Assembly (NCBI GenBank): GCA_026705925.1 | Contig: JAPOZT010000004.1 | Coordinates: 62,001 to 126,000 of the forward strand | Reading direction: 5' to 3' | DNA length: 64,000 nucleotides | Origin: Gemmatimonadota bacterium | GTDB lineage: Bacteria > JAAXHH01 | Part shown: piece by piece, positions 20,093 through 31,631 of the stretch | Numbering within the stretch: the stretch's first letter is position 1 | How the letters are laid out: every line of letters begins with the position of its first letter | Notes under the pieces: generated by a model | Databases searched by the model: none | Told to the model about the DNA's origin: nothing | Seen by the model: only the letters and a program-made list of their open reading frames with translations | Made by a program: the position numbers and the translations under genes

Positions 20093-21412
20093 ATGAACCT
20101 GTGGCGCCTGCCCCTGCACTGGAAGATCATCATCGGGTTGATTCTCGGTCTGCTATACGGGATCCTCTCCGCGGCCATGGGATGGAGCCGGTTCACCGAG
20201 GACTGGATCACGCCCTTCGGCGACATCTTCCTGAACCTGCTCAAAGTCATCGCCGTGCCCCTCGTGCTGGGCTCGCTCATCATGGGCGTCGCCTCCCTGT
20301 CGGACGTGAGGAAACTGTCGCGCATCGGAGGCAGGACGATCGCCATCTACATCCTCACGACGACGGTCTCCGTAACCATCGGGCTGGTCATGGTCAATCT
20401 GCTCGAACCCGGGACGGGCGTGCCCCAGGGGTTGCAGGAACAATTGCAGGCGGCTTACCAGACCGACGCGGAATCCGACATGGAACGGGCCGAAACGGCC
20501 AGGGAGCGGGGGCCGCTGCAGGTATTCGTGGACATGACCCCCGACAACATCTTCGGCGCGCTGAGCAACAACGGGCGCATGCTCCAGGTCGTCTTCTTCT
20601 CACTTCTCTTCGGCATCGCCCTGGTACTGATCCCATCCGACAAGAGCAAACCCCTGGTGGATTTCTTCTCCGGTCTCACGTCGGTCATCATCCAGATCGT
20701 GAACATGATCATGGTCGTCGCGCCGATCGGCGTCTTCGCCCTGATCGCCAAGACCATCAACCAGGTGGCCCGGGACGACCTGTCCGCCGTCGGTGAACTC
20801 CTCGGCGCCCTGGGGTTTTACTGCTTGGTGGTTCTCCTGGGACTGCTGATCCACGGCATCATCACCTACCCGGTCATGCTCAAGATCTTCTCCAACATGA
20901 AAATCGGGCGGTTTTTCCGGGGTATCGCCCCGGCCCAGCTCCTGGCCTTCTCATCCAGTTCCAGCGGGGCCACGCTCCCGGTCACCATGGACGTGAGCCA
21001 ACGGAATCTCGGGGTTTCAAAAGAGGTTTCGTCCTTCGTCCTGCCTCTGGGCGCTACGATCAACATGGACGGCACCGCGCTCTATCAGGCCGTGGCCGCC
21101 GTGTTCATCGCCCAGGCCCTCGGCCTCGGGCTCGACATGACCGCCCAGTTGCAGATCGTCCTCACGGCCGTCCTCGCCTCCATCGGCACCGCCGCCGTGC
21201 CCGGCGCGGGCATCATCATGCTGATCATCATCCTCGAGACCATCGGCGTTCCGGCCGCAGGCATCGCGCTGATCCTCGGCGTCGACCGAATCCTCGACAT
21301 GTGCCGCACCGCGGTGAACGTCACGGGCGACGCCGCCGTGGCGACCTCGGTGGATGCCATGGAGAAACGTGCGGCCAACACGACCGCCGCAACGTCCAGT
21401 CAGACCGCGTAA
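20093..21412 (+). CDS. dicarboxylate/amino acid:cation symporter (GltP/DctA family)
   Basis: A 439-aa inner-membrane transporter of the DAACS family (SLC1-like fold). The re-entrant hairpin serine-rich motif SSSSGATLPVTMDVSQ and the NMDGTALYQAVAAVFIAQ motif of transmembrane segment 7, which forms substrate and sodium sites in GltPh, are both present. So is the segment-8 stretch DRILDMCRTAVNVTGDAA. Likely substrates are glutamate, aspartate or C4-dicarboxylates, driven by Na+ or H+. It follows the E1 beta gene by 45 bp and may share its transcript. The end of the gene is duplicated downstream (cagaccgcgtaac, then cagtccgcgtaac). Confidence 0.92.
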   Translation: MNLWRLPLHWKIIIGLILGLLYGILSAAMGWSRFTEDWITPFGDIFLNLLKVIAVPLVLGSLIMGVASLSDVRKLSRIGGRTIAIYILTTTVSVTIGLVMVNLLEPGTGVPQGLQEQLQAAYQTDAESDMERAETARERGPLQVFVDMTPDNIFGALSNNGRMLQVVFFSLLFGIALVLIPSDKSKPLVDFFSGLTSVIIQIVNMIMVVAPIGVFALIAKTINQVARDDLSAVGELLGALGFYCLVVLLGLLIHGIITYPVMLKIFSNMKIGRFFRGIAPAQLLAFSSSSSGATLPVTMDVSQRNLGVSKEVSSFVLPLGATINMDGTALYQAVAAVFIAQALGLGLDMTAQLQIVLTAVLASIGTAAVPGAGIIMLIIILETIGVPAAGIALILGVDRILDMCRTAVNVTGDAAVATSVDAMEKRAANTTAATSSQTA

Positions 21413-21494: not shown

Positions 21495-22865
21495 TCAGTG
21501 CGTCCGGCCGTATTGCTCGTAGAACCAGGCCGCGCTGTCGATGCCCCGATAGAAATTGGGCAGGTGAAACTTCTCGTTGGGCGCGTGGGCGTCGCAGTCG
21601 GGCAGACCGAAGGCCATCAGGACCGTGGGCAGGCCAAGTATCTCCTCGAACATGGCCACCACCGGTATACTGCCGCCTTCCCGGATGTAGACGGGCTCCT
21701 TGCCGAAGCCCCGCGTAATGGCCTGGTGGGCGGCCGTCACGGCGGGATGGTCCCGAGCCGTGAGGACCGGTTTGCCCGTGCCGTGATGGATGACTTCCAC
21801 CTTGACCGAAGTTGGTGCAAGGCTTCTGACGTAGTCCTCGAACGCGTGGGCGATCCTTTCGGGGTCCTGGTTCGGCACGAGGCGCATGCTCACCTTGGCC
21901 ATGGCCTTCGACGGGATCACGGTCTTCGATCCCTCGCCCGTGAATCCCCCCAGCATCCCGTTCACATCGAGGGTGGGCCGCGCCCAAAGGCGTTCCAGGG
22001 TCGAGTAGCCTTTCTCTCCTGTGGATCCCGGCAGGCCCAGTCTCCCGGTGAAGCCTTCCTCGTCAAAGGGCAACGCGGCAAGCGACGCACGCTCTTCGCC
22101 GCCCAGGGGCAGGACGTCGTCGTAGAACCCCGGCACGGTGATCCGTCCGTCGCCGTCCACCATCTTGCCCAGTATCTCCGACAATACGTTCAGGGGGTTG
22201 GGAACCGCGCCGCCGTAGACGCCCGAATGCAGGTCCTTGTTGGGTCCCTCGAGTCGGACCTCCATGTAGGCCATGCCCCGCAGGGCATACCCGATCGAGG
22301 GCTGCTCGTAGTCGAACATGGACGTGTCGGAAATGACCACCACGTCCGCCCCCAGTTCCTCCCTGTGGCTTTCCAGGTAGGCTTCCAGGTTCTCGCTCGA
22401 TACTTCTTCCTCGCCCTCGATCAGCAGGCGGACGTTCACCGGCAGGCGGCCGTTCTCCCGCAGGTGGGCCTCCAGCGCCTTCACGTGCAGCCAGACCTGC
22501 CCCTTGTCGTCCGTCGATCCCCGGGCGTAGAGGTTGTCGCCTCGTACCACGGGATCAAAGGGATCACTCTCCCAGAGCTCAAAGGGTTCCGCGGGCTGGA
22601 CGTCGTAATGGCCGTATAGCAGGACGGTTGGCCTGCCGGGCGCGCCGAGCCAATCCGCCGTCACGATGGGATGGCCGGGCGTGGGATTCACGGCCACGTT
22701 CTGCATGCCGATCCGTTCCAGTTCGTCGGCGAGGAAACGGGCGCAACGGCGCAGGTCCTCTCGGTGGTGGGGATGGGTGCTCACGCTGGGAATGCGGAGG
22801 AAGTCCTTCAAGCCCTCCAGGGCCTGGGTACGCTGTCCTTCCAGGTAGGAAATGACTTTATCCAT
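21495..22865 (-). CDS. M20-family dipeptidase
   Basis: A 456-aa zinc peptidase of the M20 family (carnosinase-like dipeptidases). Metal and catalytic residues lie in LLYGHYDVQPAEP, RGSTDDKGQ (bridging Asp) and IEGEEEVSS (general base and metal Glu). The late PVVAMFEEILGLPTVLMAFGLPDCDAHAPNEKF carries the final histidine ligand. There is no signal peptide, so it is probably cytosolic and releases amino acids from imported dipeptides. It converges on the symporter gene; the 82 bp between them hold no clear terminator. Confidence 0.92.
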   Translation of the reverse strand: MDKVISYLEGQRTQALEGLKDFLRIPSVSTHPHHREDLRRCARFLADELERIGMQNVAVNPTPGHPIVTADWLGAPGRPTVLLYGHYDVQPAEPFELWESDPFDPVVRGDNLYARGSTDDKGQVWLHVKALEAHLRENGRLPVNVRLLIEGEEEVSSENLEAYLESHREELGADVVVISDTSMFDYEQPSIGYALRGMAYMEVRLEGPNKDLHSGVYGGAVPNPLNVLSEILGKMVDGDGRITVPGFYDDVLPLGGEERASLAALPFDEEGFTGRLGLPGSTGEKGYSTLERLWARPTLDVNGMLGGFTGEGSKTVIPSKAMAKVSMRLVPNQDPERIAHAFEDYVRSLAPTSVKVEVIHHGTGKPVLTARDHPAVTAAHQAITRGFGKEPVYIREGGSIPVVAMFEEILGLPTVLMAFGLPDCDAHAPNEKFHLPNFYRGIDSAAWFYEQYGRTH

Positions 22866-24858: not shown

Positions 24859-25995
24859 TCATGCGCAGTACGCTTTGGCTACTTCCGTGAGGACCTCGGC
24901 GCAGACTTCGATCGACGCCACGTCCACCCATTCGTTGTCCCCGTGAAAGTCACCGCCCGCCGGACCGTAGATCACCGTCGGGATCGAGCGCTCGCTCAAC
25001 AACGCGGCATCCATCCAGCCCGCACTCCCGGCGACACGGGGCCGGCGGCCCGACGACCGTTCGGCGACCGTCCTGACCTGTTCGACGATTTCATGACCGG
25101 AATCGATCGAAAAAGGCCGCCGTTCGAAGGTCAGATCGATCGTGGCTTGAAAACCCGGATCGGCCCGGCGGCACCGTTCGGCTATTTCCTCCAGCTCCGT
25201 AATTACGCTTCGAGCCGTCTCTCCCGGAACCGTGCGCCTTTCCACCCCCAGGCGGCAGGTCGCGGGATAGCTTGACATCTCGCGGCCGCCGGCGATGACC
25301 GATGCATGCACCGATCCGGAACCGAGCAACGGATCACCTGCTCGTTGTTCCAGTTCGGCCTGAAGATCCTCGAGTCCCCGGAGAAACGCCCCCATCTTCG
25401 CGATTGCGTCCAGTCCATCCTCCGGCCTGGAACCATGGGCGGCGCGGCCCCGCGTAGTGACGTCCGCCCAGACGAAACCCTTGTGCGCGACCAGGACATC
25501 CCCGCTGGTGGGTTCCGTCACGATGGCTGCGTCGGCCGTCACGCCGCTGTCCAGAACGGCCGTGGTACCGACGCTGTAGGCCTCTTCGTCCGCAACGGCC
25601 GTCATGACCACGTCCCCCCTCAGATCCATGGTCCGCGCACGGGACAACGTAACCATCATTGCGGCCACCGAAGCCTTCATGTCTCCAGCACCGCGGCCGT
25701 ACATCCTGCCCGCTTCGACCCTCGGACGGAAGGGGTCGTCCATGCCCTCCACGCCGACCGTATCGAAATGACCGTTCAGGATGAGCGAGCGCCCGCCCCC
25801 CGTACCCCGTGCGACGGCAACCACGCTGGGACGCCCGTCCGCGTCCACGATCCGCACGTCGAGGGAGCTGTCCCGGCACCAGTCCGCGACGAAGGCGGCG
25901 ATTTCCTGCTCGCCCGCAGCGTCCGGTGACAGCGTGGGATTGGTCGAGTCGATCGAAACGAGTTTTGCGGTGAGCTCCTGGAGCGTGCCGGTCAT
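24859..25995 (-). CDS. M20-family peptidase/deacylase (ArgE/DapE-like)
   Basis: A 378-aa M20 metallohydrolase. Motifs are [25 protein letters not shown] (bridging Asp), [12 protein letters not shown] (catalytic Glu and metal ligand) and a late [16 protein letters not shown] (histidine ligand). Relatives remove acyl groups from amino acids (ArgE, DapE) or cleave glutamate (CPG2-like), and the substrate cannot be decided here. Its ATG overlaps the stop of the hybrid kinase gene by 4 bp (ATGA), so the two are translationally coupled. The stop codon lies in a perfect 11-bp tandem duplication (tcatgcgcagt at 24848-24869). Confidence 0.88.
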
Positions 25996-28900
25996 TTTTC
26001 ACTCCCGGCCTGCTGTTTCGCTTCGGCGACGCGTTCCGCGAGGACCGGCTTCAAACGGTCCAGTTCATGGGTGAGCGCTTCCAGAACCTCTTCCGCGCCA
26101 TCCAGATCGCCTTCCCGGCCCATCTTTTCCAGGCGCTGGGCGGCATCGACGGTGGCCCCGGCCTGGAAAACCCCCGCGGAACCCTTCAACGTATGGGCAT
26201 GCCGTCTCAGGTCGGCGGCGTTCCCCCCATCGATCGCTTCGCGAATACCGGTCTCGAGCCCGGGGCACTCCGCCAGGAAGAGTCCGGCCAGTTCGGCGAT
26301 CACGGCCTCGTCCCCGCCAACCTGCGCAACGGCCTTTTCCCAATCGACCGGCGCGGAGTCCGATGACGGCGCGGAGGCCGGTGACGGCGCGGAGGCCGGT
26401 GACGGCGTGGATTCCGATAATGGGACGGAGTCCGGTGACGGTGCGGCCGTCTCCCGGTCCGCCGTTGAAGCGGACTCCCCGGATGATGTCTGCGCGCCTT
26501 CCACCGCCGCGTACAGCAATGGCGCCTGGATGGGCTTGGACAGGTAATCGTCCATCCCGGCCTCGATGCACCGCTCCCGGTCGCCGCTCATGGCGTGGGC
26601 CGTCATGGCTATGATGGGGATATGATCGCCGCCCGATTCCAGGCTGCGAATGGACCGCGTCGCCTCCAGTCCATCCATTTCAGGCATCTGCACGTCCATC
26701 AGGATCAGGTCGAACACACCGGACTTGAACCGTTCCACCGCTTCCCGGCCGTTATTCGCCACGGTAACCCCGTGACCCCTGGACTCCAGCATGAGGACCG
26801 CGACGCGCTGGTTCACGGCGCCATCCTCGGCCAGGAGGATGCGTCGGGACACAACCCCCTCGGACGAGCCTTCGGCGCTCTCTTCCAGTGCGGGAGCGCC
26901 CGTGCCGGCCACCGTATCCATGATAGCATTCAGCAGGTCGGACTGCTTGACCGGCTTGCTGACCGTACAGGCGATTCCGAACGACTTGCCGAACTCAAGG
27001 TCGTCCCGGTGTCCTGCGGAAACCAGCAGGATGACGTCAAGGTCCCGTCCTTCGGTGCACCGGTTGATCTCCCGGATGAGCCCGTATTCTTCCATTTCCT
27101 GCATGGTCTCGTCCAGCAGGACCAGCCGGATGGCTTCGCCGCCATCGCCGGTAAGGGCGGTGAGGGCTTCCACGCCCGTACCGGCTTCCGTAGTCCCCAT
27201 GGACCATTCGGCCAGCATGTCGACCAGGAACCCACGATTGGTGGGATGGTCGTCGACCACGAGTACCTGCAGGCCGGTCAGCGGTCCGGCGTCCACGGCC
27301 GGCTTAACCACCGCGTCGCGCTGTTTTCGCATTTCAACGGTAAAGTGGAAGGTGCTACCCCGGCCTTCTACGCTTTCGACCCAGATGCGGCCGTTCATCA
27401 TGGCGGTCAACTGCGCGCAGATGGCCAGTCCCAGGCCCGTACCGCCGTACTTGCGCGACATGGAACTGTCCGCCTGGCTGAAGACGTCGAAGATCAACTG
27501 CTGCTTGTCTTCCGGTATGCCGATGCCGGTGTCGGTCACCGCGCAGGCAAGCGTCACGGTTTCCTCCGATTCCGAGGCCTGGGACATGGAAAGGACCACG
27601 TCTCCTGCTTCCGTGAACTTGATGGCGTTTCCGACCAGGTTGATCACGATCTGGCTCAATCGTCCCGGGTCGCCCAACAGCTGGTCCGGCACGTCTGGAG
27701 CGACCCGGTACGCCAGCTCGAGGCCCTTTTCCGCAGCGGGGATCGACATGGCCTGCACGGTATTGGCGATGCGCTCCCGCAGGCCGAAGGGGATCGATTC
27801 GAGTTCCAGGCGGCCCGCCTCGATCTTCGAGAAGTCCAGGATATCGTTCAACAGGCCCTGGAGCGATTCCGTGGACTGATCGATGAGCCGCATGAACTCC
27901 CGCTGCCGGGAGGTGAGGTCGGTATGCAGCATGAGCTGGGTCATGCCGGTGATCCCGTTGATCGGCGTGCGGATTTCGTGGCTCATGTTGGCGAGGAACT
28001 CGCTCTTTGCCCGGCTGGCCTCCTCTGCCGACTCCTTGGCTTCCTGGAGTTCCCCCTGGAAAAGCACCATGTCGTGGGTCGTCTGCTCCAGCAGGGCGTT
28101 CTGCCGGTGCAGTTCGTGAGCCATCCGGGTGCGTTCCGCGTCGATCTGTCCGATCGAACGGGCGTTCCACCAGATCAGGATGTTGAAGGCGATCACGTTG
28201 CAGACCACGAAGATCGAATGACCGAACTCCACACCGTAGAACCCCGCCCTTTCCCCCTGGAACTGAAGCCAGCCCAGGATGATGGGAATGAGAAAGGCCG
28301 CGGGGAGCAAACGGCGGGCCATGAGGCCGCCGGCCGTGGCGCTGACCAGCGTGGCCGCAGGTTCGCGGCGGGGCCGCGCGCAGAAGATGCCGACGCACAG
28401 TACGCCGAAGCCCAGCGCGGTGTTCAGCGTTATGGGGATCACGCCGGAAACCCGGTACAGGACCATGGTGCTGTAGATCGCACCGGCCAGGGAAAGCAGG
28501 GCGATGATCCCGGCGTTCATGACGCAAGCGTGGGACAGCCAGTGCCGCGGACCCCGCAGGTCGAGCAACAGGAGCGCCAGACCCACGAGCATGAACGTAA
28601 AGGCAGTGTGCGGCGCCATGCGGCTGCCGCTCAGGGACTCGGCGAAAAGCCACTGGTCGATCCCCCGGCCGCTCAGGTCGAAGTCGAAGAGCTTGGCGGT
28701 GCCCAGCGCCATGAGCAGCGCCGCGCCGGCGAAACCCGCCCACCTGCGATAGGCCGAAGCGTTCCTCGGCAGCAAGGCGCATAATGTTACGCCGGCCAGC
28801 AGAAAGGCGGCGGCCGTGAGCGGGTTCATGGGAACCCGCCCGGGGTTGATCAGACCCCGCAGGACGGCGAGATCGAACAGCCAGCCGGCGAGCACGAGCA

Positions 28901-29072
28901 CCGAACAGGCGATGACGATCACGCTGCACAGGTACGCGGCTTTCTGCAGCAGCCGCACCCACGCCGCGTCGATCTCTGTCGAAGCCGCGTCGATCTCTGT
29001 CGAAGCCTTGTCGATCTCCGTCGAAGCCGCGTCGATCTCTGTGGAAGCCGCGTCGGTTTCCGTTGAAGCCAT
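25992..29072 (-). CDS. membrane hybrid histidine kinase with two receivers and HPt
   Basis: A 1026-aa phosphorelay kinase. Five 7-residue ASTEIDA-type repeats (2-36) precede about eight membrane helices (45-305) and a coiled coil (310-355). HisKA has H365 (NMSHEIRTP); the ATPase has [18 protein letters not shown] and [10 protein letters not shown]. Receiver 1 (600-720) has phospho-acceptor D654 and receiver 2 (742-860) D793. A Pro/Ser/Ala repeat linker (875-908) leads to an HPt domain with H960 in [10 protein letters not shown]. The terminal HPt implies transfer to a separate receiver protein. The gene 34 bp upstream encodes exactly that, the receiver-glutamate dehydrogenase fusion. No periplasmic ligand domain is visible. 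Confidence 0.94.
28965..29070. repeat. 21-bp tandem repeats encoding ASTEIDA heptads
   Basis: Five in-frame copies of about 21 bp at the 5' end of the hybrid kinase gene, differing at a few positions (one copy has K for A). They encode a hydrophilic N-terminal tail before the first membrane helix. Confidence 0.9.
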
Positions 29073-29106
29073 GGCCTACCTCCCGGTCAACGCAGGCCGG
29101 CAGTCG

Positions 29107-30753
29107 TCAGGGGAAGATCCCCCGAAGCAGTTTCGCCTGGGTCACCCGGCTGATCCCCTCGATCAACGCCGCGGTACGCATGTCTATATGGTCTTCGGAC
29201 GCCCGGTGGACGGTCCTTTCGAAGGCGTCGATGAGGATGTTGTGCAGCCTGGTGTTGATCTCCTCGAGCGTCCACGTGTAGTTCTGGGTGTCCTGCACCC
29301 ACTCGAAGTACGAAACGGTCACGCCACCTGCGTTGCCCAGGACGTCCGGCAGGATGAATACGTCCTTTTCCCCGAGGATCTCGTCGGCATCGAGCGTGGT
29401 GGGTCCGTTGGCCCCTTCCGCCAGGAGCCTGCACTTCAATCGGTCCGCGTTGTCGCCGGTGATCTGGTTCTGCAACGCGGCCGGAGCGAGGATGTCGCAG
29501 GGCAGTTCCAGCAATTCCTGGTTCGTCACCTCGTCGGCCTCGGGATAGCCCGACAGGAAACGGTTTTTCTCGCAGTACTTGAAGACGTCCTCCAGCGACA
29601 GTCCATTGGCGTTGTAGATCCCGGTAGTGACGTCGCTTACCGCGACCACCCTGACTCGGTCCGCATCCAGGAATCGCGCCGTGTTGCTGCCCACGTTGCC
29701 GAAGCCCTGGACCACCGCCGTGGCGCCGTCCAGGGACATGCCCATGTGCTGCGCGGCCGCCTCGACCAGGTAGACCAGGCCGCGGCCGGTGGCTTCGCGG
29801 CGTCCCAGGGACCCGCCCAGCACGACCGGCTTGCCGGTGACGACGCCCGGCACCGTGTAGCCCGCCTGCTGGCTGTACGTGTCCATGATCCAGGCCATGA
29901 CCTGCTCGTCGGTGCCCATGTCGGGGGCCGGGATGTCCTTGTCCGGTCCGATGATGTCGATGATTTCCGACGTGAAGCGGCGGGTGAGACGCTGCAGCTC
30001 GCGGCGGGACAGGTCGGTCGGATCGATCCGGACGCCACCCTTGGCGCCGCCGAAGGGCAGGTTGATCAGCGCGCATTTCCAGGTCATCCACATGGCCAGG
30101 GCGGAGACCTCCCCCAGGTTCACGTCCTCGTGGTAGCGGATGCCGCCCTTGGTCGGACCCATGGTGAGCAGGTGCTGCACCCGGTATCCGAAGACGTTCT
30201 CCACGAGATGGTATTCGTCCCGGCGAAAGGGGAGCGTCACGATATGGGTCCGTTGGGGAAAGAGCAGCCGTTCCCGGATGTTCTCGTCCAGCCCCATGAT
30301 CTGCGCGGCCTTCAAAAACTGCTGCTGGGCCAGTTTGAACATGGCCGAATCCCACTCGCCACTGCGCGCGCGCACGCGTTCGATGGCATAGTGGATGGAC
30401 CGGGACAGCAGGGTCGTATTGGCCTGGGTCTTCACGATGTAGTCCTGCGCGCCCGCTTCCACGGCCGTGGCGGCCAGGGAAACGTCGTCGAGCCCGGTGA
30501 GTATGATGACCGGCAGTTCCGGTGCCGCCGCGCGCACGCTGTGGAGCGTGTCGAGATCGGCGCTGTCGGGCAGGACAAGGTCCAGCAGCACCACGTCGAA
30601 AGACGCCTCTCCGATCAGGTCCAGTCCTTCCCGGAGCGTCCCGGCGACGTGAAGCCGGGTCGTAAGCCGACTGGATTCCATGTAGTGACGAATCAGCTGC
30701 ACGTGCACGGGGTTGTCTTCGATCATAAGGACTTCGACGGTATTTTCCGGCAT
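29107..30753 (-). CDS. response-regulator receiver domain fused to Glu/Leu/Phe/Val dehydrogenase
   Basis: A continuous 548-aa frame with two complete domains. Residues 1-125 are a CheY-like receiver: acidic pair E12/D13, phospho-acceptor D58 in VVLLDLVLPDSAD, T86 in VIILTGLDD and K108 in DYIVKTQ. From about 133 it is a glutamate dehydrogenase-family enzyme. It shows K202 in GPTKGGIRYH, K226 in MTWKCALINLPFGGAKGG, K238, catalytic D278 in PAPDMGT, and Rossmann motif VVQGFGNVGSNTARFL (about 347-362), ending near the usual ~415-residue length. It should interconvert an amino acid such as glutamate and its 2-oxoacid with NAD(P). Phosphorylation presumably alters activity or oligomerisation (inference). 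It lies between hisA and the hybrid kinase. Confidence 0.93.
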   Translation of the reverse strand: MPENTVEVLMIEDNPVHVQLIRHYMESSRLTTRLHVAGTLREGLDLIGEASFDVVLLDLVLPDSADLDTLHSVRAAAPELPVIILTGLDDVSLAATAVEAGAQDYIVKTQANTTLLSRSIHYAIERVRARSGEWDSAMFKLAQQQFLKAAQIMGLDENIRERLLFPQRTHIVTLPFRRDEYHLVENVFGYRVQHLLTMGPTKGGIRYHEDVNLGEVSALAMWMTWKCALINLPFGGAKGGVRIDPTDLSRRELQRLTRRFTSEIIDIIGPDKDIPAPDMGTDEQVMAWIMDTYSQQAGYTVPGVVTGKPVVLGGSLGRREATGRGLVYLVEAAAQHMGMSLDGATAVVQGFGNVGSNTARFLDADRVRVVAVSDVTTGIYNANGLSLEDVFKYCEKNRFLSGYPEADEVTNQELLELPCDILAPAALQNQITGDNADRLKCRLLAEGANGPTTLDADEILGEKDVFILPDVLGNAGGVTVSYFEWVQDTQNYTWTLEEINTRLHNILIDAFERTVHRASEDHIDMRTAALIEGISRVTQAKLLRGIFP

Positions 30754-30755
30754 GT

Positions 30756-31526
30756 TTACTCTCCAGGGTCCTTGGCGCCATGATCCGGCGCGGTCGGGGC
30801 GGACTGGTATTTGCGCACGGCTTCCGAGAGGTCGATCGTTCCTTCGTACAGGGATTTCCCCAGAACTACCCCTTCCAGGCCGTCCGCGGCGGCCCCGGCA
30901 GCCCGTTCGAGGTCGTCCAGCGTGGCCACGCCCCCCGAGGCAATCACCCGCAGTCCGCTCTCACGGGCCAGGCGCGCCGTCGAACCGGTATTCAGTCCGT
31001 TCATCGTACCGTCCCGGTCGATGTCCGTGTAGACGATCCTGCGGATCCCGGCTTCCTTCATGGCCTCCGCCAGTTCGAGGGATGAAAAGGACCCGCCGGA
31101 CGTCCAGCCGTTTACCGCGACCCGTCCCGCCCGGGCGTCGATGCCGACGACGATGCGTTCCGACCCCCATTCCTCCACCGCCTGCCGCACCATGTCGGGT
31201 CGCTCCACGGCCGCCGTGCCCAGGATGACCCGGCGCACCCCGAGGTCCAGCCATGCCTCCACGGCCTCGGGCGTACGGATGCCTCCGCCCAGTTGCACCG
31301 GCATTTCGGCCTGTTCCATGATGGCGACGACACTCGTCCGGTTGCCTTCTTCGCCGGTGAACGCGCCGTCCAGGTCGACGACGTGCAGGTAGGTCGCGCC
31401 CTGCGATTTCCATCTCAACGCGACTTCCGTCGGGGAATCGCCGTACACCGTTTCCCGGTCGCGCCTGCCCTTGACGAGGCGGACGCATCGCCCCTGTCTG
31501 ATGTCGATGGCGGGGTAGAGTTGCAT
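30756..31526 (-). CDS. hisA: phosphoribosylformimino-AICAR ribotide isomerase
   Basis: A 256-aa half-barrel-duplicated TIM barrel that performs the Amadori rearrangement of ProFAR to PRFAR in histidine synthesis. MQLYPAIDIRQGRCVRLVKG gives the first catalytic Asp (D8). VDLDGAF, QLGGGIRT, the second Asp region VVGIDARAGRVAVNGW and TDIDRDGTMNG follow, with the phosphate loop ASGGV. The start at 31526 is chosen because it gives the conserved N-terminus and follows GAGGGTG at good spacing. An ATG at 31544 is also in frame. No other his gene is in the window. It leads, by 2 bp, into the receiver-GDH fusion. Confidence 0.92.
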   Translation of the reverse strand: MQLYPAIDIRQGRCVRLVKGRRDRETVYGDSPTEVALRWKSQGATYLHVVDLDGAFTGEEGNRTSVVAIMEQAEMPVQLGGGIRTPEAVEAWLDLGVRRVILGTAAVERPDMVRQAVEEWGSERIVVGIDARAGRVAVNGWTSGGSFSSLELAEAMKEAGIRRIVYTDIDRDGTMNGLNTGSTARLARESGLRVIASGGVATLDDLERAAGAAADGLEGVVLGKSLYEGTIDLSEAVRKYQSAPTAPDHGAKDPGE

Positions 31527-31631
31527 TGGTATCATCACCCTCATGAGCCCTGTCCGACGGCGCGCTTTCGGACCACGCGTCCTGTGCTAAAGATGGACCG
31601 AAAAGCGCCGGCCTGTCAACCGACAAATCCC

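Follow-up and report, generated by a model that had tools for sequence, protein, structure and literature searches.

The known targets of response regulators are mostly transcription and second messengers. A gene that joins a receiver domain to a glutamate dehydrogenase (GDH) raises the question of whether a two-component signal can be delivered directly to an enzyme of central metabolism. This gene, called REC-GDH here, lies in a 64,000-nucleotide stretch of a Gemmatimonadota genome, which was analyzed as a whole and is referred to as the window. A preliminary description, made from the sequence of the window, considered REC-GDH to be a dehydrogenase gated by phosphorylation.

Gene and Domains of REC-GDH

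REC-GDH encodes 548 amino acids on the minus strand of the window (29107-30753), with an ATG at 30753 and a TGA at 29109-29107, according to the ORF list, the Pfam matches, and the residue table. The frame is uninterrupted, as the preliminary description had reported without naming the strand, and the residues that it had listed for the receiver (E12/D13, D58, T86, and K108) and for the dehydrogenase (K202, K226, K238, D278, and the GFGNVG loop) were all found at those positions. The receiver domain covers residues 8-117 (30403-30732, minus strand, calculated from the start codon) and is matched by Response_reg (PF00072) at 68.1 bits, over the curated cut-off. E12, D13, D58, T86, Y105, and K108 are all present, with the D58 codon at 30580-30582 on the minus strand, and among them are the acidic pair, the phosphorylatable aspartate, the threonine or serine, and the lysine by which a response regulator is recognized.

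The rest of the protein contains both domains of the GDH (ELFV) superfamily. ELFV_dehydrog_N (PF02812) matches residues 166-294 (29872-30258, minus strand) at 175.8 bits and represents the assembly and substrate domain with K202, K226, K238, and D278. ELFV_dehydrog (PF00208) matches residues 313-545 (29119-29817, minus strand) at 260 bits and represents the nucleotide-binding domain with GFGNVG at 350-355 and S481. Both scores exceed the curated cut-offs. The reference was the GDH of C. symbiosum (1bgv), in which we take K89, K113, K125, D165, and S380 to be the binding and catalytic set. At an offset of 113, K202, K226, K238, and D278 presumably correspond to K89, K113, K125, and D165, and the match of REC-GDH 159-546 to chain positions 47-447 of 1bgv is consistent with this offset. 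With S481, the glutamate-type binding and catalytic residues are all present. The scores for the NCBIfam equivalogs GdhB_Halo (490.6 bits, cut-off 620) and GdhA_Arch (480.1 bits, cut-off 750) are below the cut-offs, so the substrate and cofactor of REC-GDH are putative assignments made from its residues. A 655-amino-acid frame on the plus strand (28816-30783) runs antisense to REC-GDH; many long antisense frames occur here, and it was not taken as a gene.

Genomic Neighborhood

Directly upstream of REC-GDH lies hisA (30756-31544, minus strand, PF00977), and its TAA is followed by AC and then by the ATG of REC-GDH, which leaves a two-base gap. GGAGAG at 30759-30764, read by eye, resembles a ribosome-binding site. 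The gene 34 bp downstream of REC-GDH encodes a hybrid histidine kinase of 1026 amino acids (25992-29072, minus strand), identified by Pfam, adjacency, and orthology and not foreseen in the preliminary description. Its Pfam domains are HisKA (355-420), HATPase_c (467-581), two receivers, and HPt (PF01627, 927-1008; 26049-26294, minus strand). A hydrophobicity scan found six hydrophobic segments in residues 48-301 (28170-28931, minus strand), where no Pfam match was listed, and this region is taken as a membrane sensor. The kinase is the probable phosphodonor of REC-GDH, and its HPt domain is the presumed donor to D58. The kinase end overlaps by 4 bp with a gene for a deacylase of the M20 ArgE/DapE family (24859-25995, minus strand; ORF list and Pfam), which is also found downstream of the kinase in the congeners L020 and L021.

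M20 peptidase or deacylase genes occur at two places near REC-GDH in the window (24859-25995 and 21495-22865), and another adjoins the fusion in a planctomycete (L143:3719-4987). A sodium:dicarboxylate symporter gene (20093-21412) is located about 8 kb from REC-GDH, and its best NCBIfam match is the glutamate/aspartate symporter GltP, below the cut-off.

REC-GDH is the only gene of the GDH (ELFV) family found in the window's genome, which is 94% complete. No large NAD-GDH was found in this genome, and GOGAT is present. In a search with PF00208 at 1e-20, 15 of 40 genomes gave a single hit, and 11 of these belong to the window's family (nine congeners together with G012 and G013).

Distribution and Origin of the Fusion

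The whole fusion is present in 10 of the 11 other genomes of the same genus at 93-98% identity, and the copy in the eleventh (G004, locus L018) is cut by the contig end. Named relatives of this genus are MAGs labelled Gemmatimonadetes SB0665_bin_8 and Candidatus Latescibacterota. At 76-80% identity, the fusion occurs in G012 and G013 of the same family and in G015 of the same order; in G014, which is of the same order and 83% complete, only two unfused GDHs with 49% identity were seen. Among the best 80 loci of a contig search, 11 were fused by a test for a receiver in the same ORF (L020-L028, L031, and L032). They include Rhodopirellula sp. JC639, Halomonas stenophila, Aestuariicella hydrocarbonica, Sinorhizobium shofinae, and Lujinxingia vulgaris, as well as MAGs of Myxococcales, Planctomycetaceae, Gammaproteobacteria, and Gemmatimonadota. 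Sinorhizobium fredii NGR234 also carries the fusion. Beyond the window's lineage, the fusion occurs in Planctomycetota, Myxococcota, Alphaproteobacteria, and Gammaproteobacteria.

Surveys of families, classes, and a phylum were based on even samples, E cut-offs of 1e-120 or 1e-150, and a few scored candidates per genome, so that all of their counts are lower bounds. Fused genes were found in at least 6 of 151 genomes of the Halomonas family, at least 2 of 199 of the Sinorhizobium family, at least 1 of 369 of the Aestuariicella class (Aestuariicella itself), and at least 11 of 235 of Myxococcota, where nine GDH-only matches were also found. In the class of Rhodopirellula, at least 22 of 297 genomes were fused by match span, 16 of which were ORF-checked, and G652 has GDH alone with an internal stop. 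Among plasmid records, 9 of the 13 with a match at 1e-100 carry the whole fusion, and all nine belong to Sinorhizobium or Ensifer. The same frame is thus found in congeners, other phyla, and complete plasmid records, so a frameshift or a chimeric assembly, which the preliminary description had named as a threat to its reading, can practically be dismissed, as can a gene-calling artefact. A chance ORF is excluded by the Pfam scores and the cross-phylum conservation.

A GDH tree was built from 94 rows, namely 45 fused genes, with three of the 12 same-genus genomes (the window, L020, and L021) among them, and 49 unfused genes; L018, L019, and L083 were left out and the unfused rows were thinned. 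The 45 fused and four unfused genes form one clade (100/99), and the fusion state requires two changes on the tree. This pattern is compatible with a single old origin of the fusion. The first branch of the clade is L147, with weak support (93/75). The available flanking DNA of the four unfused members (L029, L030, L033, and L148) contains no receiver fragment among ORFs of at least 50 amino acids, so loss of the receiver is likely, and a split receiver gene next to them was rejected by the same search.

In two Lokiarchaeota loci (L079:10028-10912 and L088:3697-4587), a stand-alone protein of about 295 amino acids has a receiver 39% identical to that of REC-GDH. Its gene and that of an unfused GDH converge, a kinase is encoded about 1 kb from that GDH, and the arrangement is possibly an unfused analogue of REC-GDH.

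Kinase Genes Adjacent to REC-GDH

Of the 45 fused genes, 28 have a kinase ORF no more than 300 bp away (27 on the same strand), compared with none of 81 unfused GDH genes. The profile used for this count was derived from relatives of the window's kinase and may overlook distant kinases. When both flanks had to extend for 1 kb or more, the counts were 28 of 42 fused versus 0 of 73 unfused, with no adjacent kinase in 14 of the 42; the cut fused locus L018 was left out of these counts. Four unfused GDH loci have a kinase within 5 kb. Since the fusion is essentially of one origin and the rows are related, the counts are not independent, and the Fisher p of 1e-16 was set aside as an argument for this reason. 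A test that takes the phylogeny into account could draw on 1-2 pairs for the link between fusion and kinase adjacency and was without power.

With the same flank requirement, adjacency was found at 25 of 26 fused loci outside Planctomycetota and at 3 of 16 within it. The 13 planctomycete loci with both flanks and no adjacent kinase are L023, L027, L135, L137-L145, and L147; in L141 a kinase is located 3.6 kb away on the opposite strand. The Myxococcales locus L026 has no kinase in its short flank. Eight neighbors taken from five of the kinase-less planctomycete loci showed no common partner, and they were assigned to M20 peptidase, HGLS, subtilase, DUF1501, PSD1/PSCyt, YitT, and sulfatase or to nothing.

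The placement of the adjacent kinase varies: it is downstream on the same strand, upstream on the same strand (L025, L133, L134, and L136), or convergent (L028). A full-length domain scan covered 26 of the 28 adjacent kinases, the exceptions being the cut copies in L015 and L136. HisKA, HATPase_c, and two receivers occur in all 26, and HPt occurs in 22. Their sensors include PAS, GAF with or without PAS_3, YfiR-like, CHASE, and dCache-HAMP-PAS, and none was found in L028. The four Myxococcota kinases in which no HPt match was found (L155, L156, L157, and L163) all end after the second receiver, so a relay through HPt would not be theirs unless HPt comes from elsewhere.

When the core of the window's kinase was searched in 23 genomes chosen for having an adjacent kinase, with up to 51 candidates scored per genome, the GDH-adjacent kinase was the best match in 21 and the second best in the other two (G1174 and G1151). 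A kinase tree of 51 rows contained 27 of the 28 adjacent kinases (L015 being too short), 23 of the 24 non-adjacent kinases that were fetched, and a second, convergent kinase of L134. One clade of this tree, with moderate support (89/87), unites 19 adjacent kinases, which belong to the window's lineage, L022, Planctomycetota, and Proteobacteria. The eight adjacent kinases of Myxococcota fall in a neighboring clade, mixed with non-adjacent kinases. These trees and searches suggest that the adjacent kinase and REC-GDH have largely been inherited together. The varied placement, the constant core with a varied sensor, and this co-inheritance are given more weight than the raw adjacency counts.

Two-Gene Block on Rhizobial Plasmids

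In nine Sinorhizobium or Ensifer plasmids and in locus L031, a kinase ORF follows REC-GDH every time, and two Sinorhizobium plasmid kinases agree with the domain pattern of the adjacent kinases. The plasmid annotations name REC-GDH a 'Glu/Leu/Phe/Val dehydrogenase dimerization domain-containing protein' and its neighbor a 'response regulator' or 'hybrid sensor histidine kinase/response regulator'. The shared DNA is a block of about 4.7 kb, with one boundary about 40-110 bp upstream of REC-GDH and the other no more than about 35 bp from the end of the kinase. Its boundaries were compared between L173, L174, L175, L181, and the L176-L180 group, which provide at least five contexts. Beyond this block, no further homology was found between these loci in flanks of 6-8 kb on either strand, and the annotated flanking genes differ between plasmids. 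L031 shares further short pieces (185-595 bp) with some plasmids at other distances. S. fredii CCBAU 45436 has a shorter kinase frame (L180:7616-9517), and in S. fredii NXT3 the annotation splits the kinase into two overlapping genes (L174:9796-12643). The REC-GDH and kinase block behaves as one unit; the transfer of both genes as a unit on rhizobial plasmids was outside the predictions of the preliminary description. On an Ensifer adhaerens plasmid (L181:1-5275), the pair is found near genes for methylaspartate ammonia-lyase, CoA-transferase, CoA ester lyase, and fumarate hydratase, a glutamate-catabolism setting.

Structure and Receiver-Dehydrogenase Junction

The AlphaFold2 model of the REC-GDH monomer has a mean pLDDT of 89.3 and a pTM of 0.76. 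According to its secondary structure, receiver helix alpha5 (113-132) is followed by a short break and by the first GDH helix (137-153), and this junction is encoded at 30295-30417 on the minus strand. Residues 111-140 have a pLDDT of 63-77, which is of moderate confidence and together with the pTM means that the placement of the receiver is not fixed in the model. In each of the 45 fused genes, K108 and Q145 delimit a stretch of 38 residues, and this invariant length would suit a receiver that is rigidly coupled to the GDH assembly domain. Among 27 representatives, the most conserved receiver elements are beta3, beta4, beta5, and the loop after beta3 (0.82-0.85). Conservation is 0.75 for alpha4 and 0.86 for the first GDH helix, and alpha5 (0.64) is not above alpha1 (0.62) or alpha3 (0.64), so conservation does not mark out alpha5.

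In a phmmer search of the PDB, hexameric GDHs matched REC-GDH 136-548, with 1b26 of Thermotoga maritima at the top, and Foldseek with the AlphaFold2 model retrieved the same GDH enzymes. The best stretch of all 56 solved sequences listed at E <= 1e-30 in the phmmer search leaves the receiver unmatched. A complex of GudB with its counter-enzyme glutamate synthase (7mfm) is among the structural matches.

Members without Catalytic Residues

The receiver residues (E, D, D, T/S, Y/F, and K) are kept in 43 of the 45 fused genes, the exceptions being L147, with V at the T86 position, and L146, which is cut before the acidic pair. K202, K226, K238, and D278 are kept in 42 of the 45. The three other genes were outside the predictions of the preliminary description. 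L152 and L153, from two genomes of the Halomonas family, have L, Q, G, and A at K202, K226, D278, and S481, and L163 of Myxococcota has L at K202 and G at D278. All three have intact receiver residues and an adjacent kinase, and their genomes contain one or two other PF00208 genes each. The dN/dS of the GDH part of L152/L153 is 0.135 (one pair), indicating purifying selection; it was computed on stop-to-stop frames, and since untranslated codons upstream of the start may enter the N-terminal receiver values of other pairs, those values were disregarded. The GDH and kinase trees place L152/L153 and L163 in different groups; two separate origins of K202L and D278G are therefore probable, though the GDH branches are long. 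These members make a dehydrogenase output unlikely as the role of every member.

Proposed Mechanism and Alternative Explanations

With a probability of about 0.6, REC-GDH is the output of a dedicated two-gene phosphorelay in which phosphorylation of D58 alters GDH catalysis or the hexamer state. This reading is based on the observed domain architecture, residue conservation, kinase adjacency and co-inheritance, and the occurrence of the pair as one plasmid block; from these we infer the phosphotransfer path, the gating, which may activate or inhibit, and the presence of a signal. The hybrid kinase would sense a lineage-specific signal, in the window through its multi-pass membrane region, and would autophosphorylate on the HisKA histidine. 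The phosphate would pass to the kinase receiver or receivers, then to the HPt histidine (in the window and most relatives), and from there to D58 of the receiver fused to GDH. The canonical T86/Y105/K108 switch would then shift the alpha4-beta5-alpha5 face, and alpha5, continuing at fixed length into the first GDH helix, could carry the change to the GDH assembly domain. Catalysis or the hexamer state would be altered, and the signal would set the glutamate/2-oxoglutarate flux without new transcription. The gated dehydrogenase of the preliminary description gains from the intact receiver and GDH catalytic residues, the old and conserved fusion, and the adjacent HPt-bearing hybrid kinase, and it loses ground with the members that lack catalytic residues. 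The four HPt-less kinases also weaken the phosphorelay slightly.

The receiver could instead serve as a phosphorylation-dependent device for assembly or localization, which acts through partner binding, location, or stability and changes the GDH kinetics little. We regard this as unlikely. The length-invariant junction into the assembly domain, the kinase pairing, the catalytically altered members that retain receiver and kinase, and the GudB-glutamate synthase complex 7mfm would all suit such a device. Against it, the four catalytic residues are kept in 42/45 genes, the fused gene is the only PF00208 hit in 15/40 genomes, and no interaction partner was found.

Reverse flow appears decidedly unlikely as well; here, the GDH fold would sense glutamate, 2-oxoglutarate, or NAD(P)H and control the phosphorylation of its own receiver, which would be a sink or feedback for the kinase. 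L152, L153, and L163 are what such a system might look like, with catalytic residues gone, the receiver intact, a kinase adjacent, purifying selection on the GDH part (L152/L153), and other PF00208 genes in the genome, and the four kinases without HPt raise this alternative slightly. The retention of catalytic residues in all but three of the 45 genes speaks against it, as do the kinases themselves, which mostly have their own sensor domains and, in 22/26, their own HPt. A passive relic or solubility domain without a regulatory role is highly improbable, since phospho-site residues are kept in 43/45 genes across several phyla and the kinase association and shared plasmid block oppose it, even though the four GDHs without a receiver inside the fused clade show that a receiver may be missing and 13 planctomycete copies have no adjacent kinase.

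The phosphorelay reading can be extended further. It is conceivable, if somewhat against the odds, that a relay with a central-metabolism enzyme as output has been carried from phylum to phylum as a compact pair of genes whose sensors can be swapped, and that at least two lineages then lost catalysis by K202L and D278G and kept the receiver, the GDH fold, and the kinase as a pure signaling output.

Comparison with Known Systems

The GDH part of REC-GDH resembles the hexameric GDHs of Thermotoga maritima and Thermus thermophilus (1b26, 3aog, and 3aoe), with 50-51% identity and a target-normalized TM-score of 0.88-0.93. It differs from them in that the matches span residues 136-548 at most, with the receiver outside. 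The title of 3aoe describes a hetero-hexamer, one subunit of which we take to be regulatory. Control of GDH by partner proteins or transcription is known from RocG/GudB-GltC and GdhZ-KidO. REC-GDH is similar to these systems in that GDH is the regulated glutamate node, but we know of no case among these enzymes in which a receiver is part of the GDH.

The window's kinase shares HisKA, HATPase, receiver, and HPt relay parts with hybrid kinases of the BarA, ArcB, and TorS type. Its best NCBIfam match is BarA (NF008318), at 514 bits against a cut-off of 890 and thus below the level for that family. Unlike these kinases, it has two Pfam receivers and adjoins REC-GDH.

In agreement with the preliminary description, which knew of no characterized example, a full-text literature search recognized no published description of REC-GDH, within a reach that leaves most subscription journals and bioRxiv outside. 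The parts of PMC1183210, PMC11237479, PMC12918730, PMC2674652, and PMC4618731 that were consulted describe no REC-GDH fusion.

If the phosphorelay reading is true, a receiver inside GDH would let a signal act on the nitrogen/carbon balance rapidly and post-translationally, and in some bacteria the signal may feed directly into an enzyme of central metabolism instead of into gene expression. Direct two-component gating of a primary-metabolism enzyme is testable in strains that carry the fusion, such as S. fredii NGR234, H. stenophila, A. hydrocarbonica, L. vulgaris, and Rhodopirellula sp. JC639, and the members without catalytic residues would separate catalysis from signaling.

Response regulators with enzymatic outputs are a known class, which includes CheB, diguanylate cyclases, EAL/HD-GYP proteins, and PP2C. 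REC-GDH shares with them an N-terminal receiver with an intact phospho-site, an enzymatic C-terminal part, and a kinase next door. The enzymes of this class make or break signals or modify signaling proteins, whereas the output of REC-GDH is an enzyme of central nitrogen and carbon metabolism. The domains and the enzymatic-output regulators were already known; as far as could be found, the combination of a primary-metabolism enzyme under a receiver with a hybrid kinase that travels along is new.
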